Below, in pieces: positions 38,377-40,783 of a DNA stretch of 64,000 nucleotides (its first letter is position 1; every line of letters starts with the position of its first letter). The notes beneath the pieces were generated by a model. It saw only the letters and a program-made list of their open reading frames with translations. It ran no database searches and was not told the origin of the DNA. The stretch is taken from contig JAUSPV010000097.1 of assembly GCA_030652755.1 (NCBI GenBank), positions 36,769-100,768 on the forward strand. The letters are read 5' to 3'. Source of the stretch: Caulobacter sp. Lineage in GTDB: Bacteria > Pseudomonadota > Alphaproteobacteria > Caulobacterales > Caulobacteraceae. The translations under genes and the position numbers were made by a program.

Positions 38377-38838
38377 TCAGGCTTCGGCCGGCGTCTCGCC
38401 CGCCAGACGCTTGTTCATCTCTTCCAGGGACGCCAGCATGCCTTCCTGTGACGCGACCGGATCGGTGTCGTCCAGCAGGCGGCCGATGGCGTTGCCGTAG
38501 AGCGCACCCAGTTCGGGTCTCCAGCGGTCGCCCATCAGGTCGACGGCATGGGCGAACAGTCCGCCGCAGCGCGACAGCCGCACCATCCCCGCCGCGCCGC
38601 CGACGCCCAGGATGCCGTTGGCCAGCCAGCTGAGCCGCGCCTTGTCGGGATCAGGCTGTTCGCTGAGCCGCATGATCTCGGCGACCCAGTCCTTGACCGA
38701 TTTGCGCATGTCGGCGCCGGCGTCGAGGACGACCTGCCCGCCGCGGTCCGCCGCCGTGTCGACGCTGAGGCCGAAGCGGACATCGACGGAGTCGGCGAGC
38801 CGGTTGGCCGGCTTGAAGAAGCGTGCAGCGCTGGTCAC
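38377..38838 (-). CDS. cheE: CheE-like chemotaxis operon protein
   Basis: Last gene of che operon, GTGA overlap with preceding gene; called from synteny with Caulobacter che operon. Confidence 0.65.
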   Translation of the reverse strand: MTSAARFFKPANRLADSVDVRFGLSVDTAADRGGQVVLDAGADMRKSVKDWVAEIMRLSEQPDPDKARLSWLANGILGVGGAAGMVRLSRCGGLFAHAVDLMGDRWRPELGALYGNAIGRLLDDTDPVASQEGMLASLEEMNKRLAGETPAEA

Positions 38839-39446
38839 AGTTTCACCCTCGTCGGCTTCATGAGCAAATCGATCTCGTTCTGGGACATGTTCGGTTCGAC
38901 CGCCGCCCCGATTTTCGCGTTCAGGTCGTCGTGACGGCGCCCCTTGGTCCCGACCGGCGGACCGAAGGCCTTGAAGCGCCGGTCAGGGCCGCAGTAGCCC
39001 TCCGCCTCGACGAACAGCCGCTTGTCGCGACCCAGCCAGATGATCCGCTGCAGCAGGACCGGCGGCGTCACCGGCTTGGCCAGCACGAAGTTCGCGCCGC
39101 TGTCCCGGGCCTTGTGGACCTGGTCCATCCGCGTGCCGCTGGTGACCACCAGGACCGAGGTGGCGCGGTTGAAATCCGGTCCCTCGCGGCGCAGCCAGCG
39201 AATGAAGTCAAAGCCGGCGCCGTTGGCCAGCGCGGCCTCGACCAGGATGAGGTCGAACTCCGACCCGCCGGCCGCCGCCTTGGCGTCGCGCAGGTTGCCG
39301 ACCTTGGTCTGACGGCGCAAGTCAAAGCTGCCCAGCACGTTGGACAGCAGGTTCAGGTGCACCTGGTTGTCGTCGAGCAACAAGGCTCGGGCTCGGGTCA
39401 GGTCGACCTTGGCGGTGGCGGCGACGGGGCTCTGCGTTTCGTTCAT
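38835..39446 (-). CDS. CheY-like receiver protein with C-terminal extension (CheYIII position)
   Basis: Receiver: LLLDDNQVHL, DLILVEAAL, VVTSG, LAKPVTP; Arg-rich tail and NMSQNEIDLLM. Confidence 0.85.
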   Translation of the reverse strand: MNETQSPVAATAKVDLTRARALLLDDNQVHLNLLSNVLGSFDLRRQTKVGNLRDAKAAAGGSEFDLILVEAALANGAGFDFIRWLRREGPDFNRATSVLVVTSGTRMDQVHKARDSGANFVLAKPVTPPVLLQRIIWLGRDKRLFVEAEGYCGPDRRFKAFGPPVGTKGRRHDDLNAKIGAAVEPNMSQNEIDLLMKPTRVKL

Positions 39447-39453
39447 CTGCGCC

Positions 39454-39837
39454 TCAGAAGAGGTCAAAGTCTCCGGACTCGAACACATCGGCCGGGGCCT
39501 CCTCGTCCGCGGCGTGCGCGGTGAGACGGTCAGCCATATCCTGAAGCGGAATGGCCCCCAGAGCGGCGGTCAGGTCCACGGCTGGATCGAACGCTACTGT
39601 CGCCACGACGTGGCGGATGAAATGGGTGAGCACGCCGAGGCGTTGCGACACCAGGTCGAGGGTCTGCAGCTCGCGCACCAGGACCGCGTCCAGGTGGGCG
39701 GCGTGCTCGGGCACATGGCAGATGCTCTGTACGCGCAGCAGATGCGCCTCCAGGAGCGCCAGCTCGTGGGCGACGCCCCCGAGCGCGCCATTGAGGCCGT
39801 GCGGCAGATCCTGTGCTGGACGGGCGACCGCGGACAT
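39454..39837 (-). CDS. cheU: CheU-like chemotaxis protein
   Basis: Between cheD and cheYIII, ATGA overlap with cheD; 127 aa ending ESGDFDLF; called from synteny. Confidence 0.6.
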   Translation of the reverse strand: MSAVARPAQDLPHGLNGALGGVAHELALLEAHLLRVQSICHVPEHAAHLDAVLVRELQTLDLVSQRLGVLTHFIRHVVATVAFDPAVDLTAALGAIPLQDMADRLTAHAADEEAPADVFESGDFDLF

Positions 39838-40397
39838 CAGAACAGCTCCAGATCGCCGGTGTTGTCGGCCGGCGGCGGCACGGCCAGCTTGCGCTCGCGG
39901 ACGAACACCGACGGATCGGCGTCGGTCAGCAGCCGCTGCATCGCCTGGCCGGTCGTGGGGCGGTAGCGGATGCGGCGGGCGCAGGTCCCGCCGGTGTCTC
40001 CGCCGATCACGGCGATGCCTTCGGCCTGCAGGAAGCGCTTGGCGAAGGCGGCGTTTTCCGCGCCGATGTTGCGCAGCCGGTCGAACATGCTGGCGCCGCC
40101 GAACAGTTTGGCTTCCAGCCGGTCGCGGCGCGCGCCGGCGCGCAACAGGCTGTTGATCAGAATTTCCATGGCGTTGACGCCGTAGCGCTTGGCCTCTTCG
40201 GCATCGCCGCTGCCGTCACCGTCAGGGAGGAGGAAGTGGTTCATGCCGCCCAGACCCCGTTCGGGATCCCGGATGCACGCGGCGATGCACGAGCCGAGCA
40301 CGGTGCTCATCACCACGTCGGAAGAATCCGACACATGATGCTCGCCCTGCCCGACATGCAGCGTCCGCTCGCCCGTTCCGTCCAACCCAATGCTCAT
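39837..40397 (-). CDS. cheD: Chemotaxis protein CheD (receptor glutamine deamidase)
   Basis: STVLGSCIAACIRDPERGLGGMNHFLLP, GGASMFDRLRNIGAENAAFAKRFL. Confidence 0.94.
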   Translation of the reverse strand: MSIGLDGTGERTLHVGQGEHHVSDSSDVVMSTVLGSCIAACIRDPERGLGGMNHFLLPDGDGSGDAEEAKRYGVNAMEILINSLLRAGARRDRLEAKLFGGASMFDRLRNIGAENAAFAKRFLQAEGIAVIGGDTGGTCARRIRYRPTTGQAMQRLLTDADPSVFVRERKLAVPPPADNTGDLELF

Positions 40398-40783
40398 GTG
40401 AGTGCGCCGAACACGCCTTCGATTTTTTCCTTCAGCACTTGAACCGTAAAAGGTTTCACCAAGTAGTTATTGACGCCGAATTGAACCGCCCTTTGCACCA
40501 GATCGGAGTCGGCGCGGCCGGTCAGCATGATGAAGGCGATGGTCTTGAACGGCGGGTGCGCGCGCACGGCGCGCAGCAGGCCCAGGCCGTCCAGCTTGGG
40601 CATGTTGTAGTCCGAGATCACCAGGTGGGCCGGCTGGGTCAGCAACAGGCGCAGGGCGGCTTCGCCGTCAGGCGCCTCCCGGATGTCCTTGAAGCCGAGC
40701 TGCTGCAGGCCTGATCGCACGAGGGTGCGGATCGTCATCTGGTCGTCAACCACGAGCACTGAAATGGCGGAGGCGGCGGGCAT
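40394..40783 (-). CDS. cheY: Chemotaxis response regulator CheY
   Basis: VLVVDDQMTIRTLVR, LVISDYNMPKLDGLGLL, IMLTGRAD, YLVKPFTVQVL. Confidence 0.94.
   Translation of the reverse strand: MPAASAISVLVVDDQMTIRTLVRSGLQQLGFKDIREAPDGEAALRLLLTQPAHLVISDYNMPKLDGLGLLRAVRAHPPFKTIAFIMLTGRADSDLVQRAVQFGVNNYLVKPFTVQVLKEKIEGVFGALT

Follow-up and report, generated by a model that had tools for sequence, protein, structure and literature searches.

Within the che cluster of the window (the whole stretch of DNA analyzed, 64,000 nucleotides), one gene encodes a CheY-like protein, predicted to be controlled by c-di-GMP, that ends in a putative docking peptide of the kind found at the N-terminus of FliM and at the C-terminus of CheZ. 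The peptide, MSQNEIDLLM, was located by sequence comparisons at residues 201-210 (38859-38888, minus strand), and judged from these comparisons it is real, conserved, and so far unremarked. No report of CheY-like proteins, Cle included, that carry a FliM-like peptide was found in the open-licence literature searched; the kind of peptide is already known, and within that literature its placement on a Cle protein is new. The explanation favored overall, with a probability of about 0.5, is that the tail would be a docking peptide acting first in cis, on the receiver of the protein that carries it, and possibly also in trans.

The Cle-Type Gene of the Window

The gene lies at 38835-39488 on the minus strand and codes for 217 amino acids, its assignment as a cleA/cheYIII-type gene being based on the translation, the Response_reg match, alignments, and the synteny of the che cluster. 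The receiver domain covers about residues 30-155 (PF00072, Response_reg, E 1.2e-13 over residues 36-149). It is followed by a predicted arginine-rich c-di-GMP-binding region (ARR), YCGPDRRFKAFGPPVGTKGRRHDD, at residues 165-188 (38925-38996, minus strand; motif definition in PMC5677366), by a linker at about residues 190-200, and by the FliM-like tail (200-212). The first copy of the ARR motif [YF]xGP[DE][RK]R is exact (YCGPDRR) and the second is degenerate (GPPVGTKGRR), a degeneration also found in proteins whose residues match the published CleA numbering. The domain search of this protein gave no match to a FliM domain or to a CheZ phosphatase domain. The first ATG of the gene lies inside cheU (39446-39488, minus strand, a 35-base overlap), and translation may actually begin at a second in-frame ATG, at codon 15.

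The gene order cheYII-cheD-cheU-window gene-cheE is shared with the che clusters of Caulobacter and Phenylobacterium, in which cheYIII/CC0440 occupies this place. By synteny and published naming, the product originally called a CheYIII protein is not simply a third CheY. CC0440 has been renamed CleA and is one of five CheY-like c-di-GMP binders of Caulobacter crescentus, which bind the nucleotide through a C-terminal ARR with tandem [YF]xGP[DE][RK]R motifs (PMC5677366). By sequence, the window protein is an ortholog of Caulobacter CleA, that is, a Cle-type c-di-GMP effector and not a plain CheY. The two are alike in the receiver, the [YF]xGP[DE][RK]R region, the C-terminal region (CTR), the arginine of helix α4, and the operon place between cheU and cheE. 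This arginine, Arg128 (39105-39107, minus strand), corresponds to R111 of C. crescentus CleA, which is needed for polar localization (PMC5677366), and it is Arg in all 141 distinct homologs. The Caulobacter homologs in the collected set fit the published CleA numbering exactly (D67, R111, R153/R154).

The canonical CheY residues Asp57 and Tyr/Trp/Phe106 are absent from the window protein. In the alignment, Glu84 (39237-39239, minus strand; context LILVE) replaces the phospho-acceptor Asp57 of Escherichia coli CheY, Val stands at position 106, and Arg148 (39045-39047, minus strand; alignment of Cle homologs) stands at the position of Lys119. The window clade has Glu at the phospho-acceptor position, as do some other Cle proteins (16 of the 108 that bear the tail motif), and others have Asn, Ala, Ser, or Gly. 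That the phospho-Asp is already Glu here is in line with the phosphorylation of C. crescentus CleA being dispensable, if the two proteins work alike.

The CleA of C. crescentus interacts with residues 2-65 of FliM, an interaction that is lost with the ID57WA mutant, needs an intact c-di-GMP site, and tolerates D67A; CleA antagonizes CheYII, which leads to fewer reversals (PMC5677366). In the same work CleD required c-di-GMP to bind the FliM peptide, the ARR was proposed in 2017 to remodel the α4-β5-α5 face, and the CTR was called variable and possibly partner-recruiting, with no function given and no mention of a likeness to FliM (PMC5677366).

The FliM-Like Tail and Its Distribution

The C-terminus of the window protein reads VEPNMSQNEIDLLMKPTRVKL (translation of 38835-39488, minus strand), with the tail peptide EPNMSQNEIDLLMKP; the stretch first quoted, NMSQNEIDLLMKP, corresponds to bases 38853-38891. 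The N-terminus of E. coli FliM is MGDSILSQAEIDALLN, and FliM from the same genome as the window reads ERILNQDEIDSLLGF, with the docking stretch ILNQDEIDSLL, a form common to all sampled FliM of Caulobacteraceae (31/31 with ILNQ[DE]EID[SN]LL). The tail M201-S-Q-N-E-I-D-L-L-M210 aligns over ten positions, in register, with L6-S-Q-A-E-I-D-A-L-L15 of E. coli FliM and follows the register [LM][S/N/D]Qx[E]I[D]x[L][LM] of FliM-N/CheZ-C peptides, sharing the S/N cap, Q, E, I, D, L, and L. In FliM the peptide is N-terminal on a switch protein, whereas here it is C-terminal on a receiver protein, ending 7 residues before the C-terminus and preceded by a linker (about 190-200) of low pLDDT.

A match as short as this, in tails of low complexity, might be a chance resemblance within a disordered acidic stretch. 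Against a matrix built solely from FliM N-peptides, the window tail outscores all of 20,000 shuffles (p = 5e-5), and with the same matrix p ≤ 0.01 is reached by 91% of 104 distinct motif-bearing homolog tails and by 9% of tail-less paralogs. The strict motif is expected about 5e-7 times per random 25-residue stretch, and a six-frame scan of the 3.5-Mb assembly for QxEIDx[L/I/M/V/F] gave only 7 matches, FliM and the window protein among them. The shuffles, a conservation that persists at about 40% identity, and the comparison with paralogs that have no tail leave chance a negligible probability, and the FliM-like motif originally claimed for these bases is borne out.

Conservation was analyzed among 146 Cle homologs (141 distinct), drawn from the family, the order, and the class. 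Of the distinct proteins, 108 retain the motif, 10 show a degraded version, and 23 are without it, so that the conservation of SQxEID in orthologs, on which the original prediction had been made to depend, is confirmed, close orthologs included. Among 95 distinct motif stretches, Q is found in all 95, I in 81, D in 83 (with Asn in 12), and M or L before the cap in 93, the cap being mostly S or D. The allowed substitutions parallel those of FliM: a hydrophobic residue, an S/D/N cap, Q, I/V/L, D/N, then L/M and L/M/F. PNMSQ.EID and KP.RV show no variation in an alignment of seven sequences that includes Hyphomonadaceae-type orthologs of 38-44% overall identity. Where whole proteins are about 38-66% identical to that of the window, their tails are 61-78% identical to its tail (11-14 of 18 residues). 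The receiver tree requires 10 or more changes on its well-supported branches, so that the tail has nonetheless been lost (or gained) repeatedly, although its presence is clustered. The window's own genome has two more Cle-CheE pairs (L002 and L003), one with a tail, NMSQDEIDSVMKP, and the other without. In the Caulobacter proteins that fit the CleA numbering the tail is LSDDEISNMM, lacking Q and D, and this decay in contrast to the intact tail of the window protein may be the reason why the resemblance was missed.

The distribution of Cle proteins follows that of FliM. A Cle homolog is present in 92 of 131 genomes with FliM versus 1 of 18 without it (149 genomes of the family, p = 1.3e-7), and the single homolog from a FliM-less genome has no tail. 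Relatives in other alphaproteobacterial families were found with a profile of the post-receiver region. These distant proteins with a receiver and an ARR end in LSQDEIDALFK, AMSQDEIDNMFT, AMSQDQIDSLME, GLSQSEVESLLGG, AMSQEEVEALMNS, ALSQDDVNALFD, or GLSQDEVNALLS, their linkers vary in length and sequence, and a CheE relative is mostly found downstream. An end word that is kept while its tether drifts is the pattern expected of a docking peptide.

CheZ provides the closest parallel. Its short C-terminal helix on a flexible tether is the main source of affinity for CheY~P (PMC1447658), and CheZ binds CheY on a face also used by FliM (PMC3774744). E. coli CheZ has the C-terminus SQDQVDDLLDSLGF, ending in VVASQDQVDDLLDSLGF, and all of 30 sampled alphaproteobacterial CheZ end in a FliM-like peptide (e.g., LSQEDIDKLFD and ISQADIDALFD). 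Hence, the original remark that no described function was known for such a tail is right for Cle proteins and not for this type of peptide, already known from CheZ. The CheZ and Cle peptides are both C-terminal on a flexible tether and nearly identical, as in CheZ QAISQDEIDAMFD versus Cle AMSQDEIDNMFT, and in three genomes (L159, L163, and L171) CheY, a CheZ-like protein, Cle, and CheE are encoded in one operon in which CheZ and Cle are both tailed. There the CheZ-like proteins end in LDQDAADALF or LSQDAADLLF, and the Cle proteins in MSQNEIDNIFG, MSQDEIDSVFG, or MSQDDVDALFG. The Cle carrier differs in lacking the CheZ phosphatase domain and in having itself a CheY fold, so that self-binding is possible, unlike in CheZ. 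No CheZ was found in the window's own genome.

Candidate Roles of the Tail

That the tail of Cle proteins is a CheY-docking peptide of the FliM-N/CheZ-C type is very probable, and it is most naturally read as a ligand of the protein's own receiver or of another CheY. It would bind the α4-β5-α5 face of a CheY-family receiver and thereby compete with FliM. Asp12 of FliM forms a salt bridge with Lys119 of CheY (PMC7012829), and D207 of the window tail corresponds to this residue of FliM. At the position of Lys119, all 146 of the Cle receivers have Arg, the CheYII of the window has Lys, and CheYI has Ala; Cle receivers and CheYII are thus both plausible partners of the tail, and CheYI less so.

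At low c-di-GMP, the flexible tail would serve as a pseudo-ligand that occupies the FliM-binding face of the CleA receiver itself. Once c-di-GMP is bound by the neighboring ARR, the tail would be pulled off and the face left free for FliM, and the same tail could also hold CheYII~P in trans. A ligand-binding protein that carries the same ligand word on a regulated tail has the usual layout of pseudo-ligand autoinhibition. This layout, together with the place of the tail just after the c-di-GMP-binding peptide, favors gating in cis over trapping in trans, and we give such gating somewhat less than an even chance of being the main job of the tail. More tentatively, tailed Cle effectors might be pseudo-ligand switches in which c-di-GMP replaces phosphorylation as the activator, the peptide then competing with FliM and CheZ for CheY~P.

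Some observations stand against these proposals. Many Cle paralogs have no tail, although the binding of the FliM peptide by C. crescentus CleD needs c-di-GMP; the published CleD data indicate that gating by c-di-GMP can exist elsewhere in the family, and the tail may not be needed for it generally. Moreover, the tail is degraded in the C. crescentus-like clade, yet CleA works there. Owing to this decay, tail-deletion tests in the model species could mislead. The AlphaFold model of the window protein (7 sequences) is good for the receiver and has a helix at 203-210 with a pLDDT of about 50, without coordinates in which docking in cis would be visible, covariation between tail and receiver resolved neither cis nor trans with only 6-8 independent pairs, and a PDB sequence search with the bare peptides, queries too short for this purpose, gave no match.

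A conserved FliM mimic beside the ARR offers a concrete, testable mechanism by which c-di-GMP could turn a CheY fold into a FliM binder, and the docking reading gives a function to the unexplained C-terminal region of Cle proteins. It suggests a single docking word for CheY receivers that is common to the motor, a phosphatase, and c-di-GMP effectors. If true, a tail that plugs the motor-binding face of its own protein or of CheY would let c-di-GMP choose who reaches the motor, and one ten-residue word would link c-di-GMP to chemotaxis.

The tail might instead work chiefly in trans, binding CheYII~P as a CheZ-like tether without phosphatase. It would then either reduce the amount of free CheYII~P or act as its escort, adding to the competition of CleA for FliM and giving fewer reversals. 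The peptide is the same as that of CheZ tails, whose partner is CheY~P (PMC1447658) on the face shared with FliM (PMC3774744), the antagonism between C. crescentus CleA and CheYII (PMC5677366) fits, and the canonical CheYII-type CheY of the window (40394-40780, minus strand), the likely partner in trans, keeps the equivalents of Tyr106 and Lys119. However, CleA's own receiver binds the same class of peptide and is tethered to the tail, which gives cis binding an advantage in concentration, and the competition for FliM is enough to account for the published phenotype. Trapping as the main role is rather unlikely.

It is less likely still that the tail serves c-di-GMP binding, the CTR folding back to complete the site and the likeness to FliM being secondary. 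In C. crescentus CleA the ARR alone does not bind c-di-GMP and the ARR with the CTR does (PMC5677366), but the GRR part may belong to the CTR of that construct. The residues kept in the tail are those of FliM and not the Arg and Gly of c-di-GMP ligands, CheZ ends in the same peptide without having a c-di-GMP site, and C. crescentus CleA binds c-di-GMP despite its degraded tail.

CheE, CheU, and CheD

CheE (38377-38838, minus strand) is a conserved neighbor of Cle: cheE follows nearly every cle gene, with an overlap of 4 bases at the cle stop in nearly all loci, the window included. It has no Pfam match and is predicted to be a helical bundle of the CheA-P1/Hpt kind (AlphaFold model with a mean pLDDT of 82; the closest PDB entries are CheA P1/Hpt domains, with 1i5n at probability 1.0, E 0.02, TM 0.59), so that from this model CheE may pair with Cle receivers as a pseudo-Hpt protein. 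Two loci (L212 and L220) carry natural one-chain fusions of a receiver, an arginine-rich region, and a CheE-like domain, which support a physical partnership between CheE and Cle proteins. The regular overlap and these fusions might suggest that the tail docks CheE, a very improbable explanation, as CheE is equally regular after tail-less paralogs (20 of 23), which rules it out as the reason for the tail, and as FliM and CheZ bear the same peptide without CheE. A phosphorelay pair of CheE His and CleA Asp was also considered and rejected: Glu57 and a CheE Tyr coincide only in the small clade of the window (5 sequences), and 10 other Glu57 proteins keep the CheE His, which indicates no general link.

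Upstream of the cle gene, cheU (39454-39837, minus strand) codes for a relative of CheT, a family of CheY phosphatases (PMC12654446). It matches the CheT family NCBIfam NF047973 with E 6.6e-7, below the family cut-off, and the DxxxQ motif reads DLVSQ. From this similarity, CheU may be the likely CheY phosphatase of this CheZ-less genome. The next gene, cheD (39837-40397, minus strand), was assigned from domain and family matches. CheD ends in NTGDLELF and CheU in ESGDFDLF, with a C-terminal word G[DE]x[DE][LF]F common to both in about 25 orthologous loci. The word is not FliM-like, and its sharing suggests a common docking partner for the two proteins.
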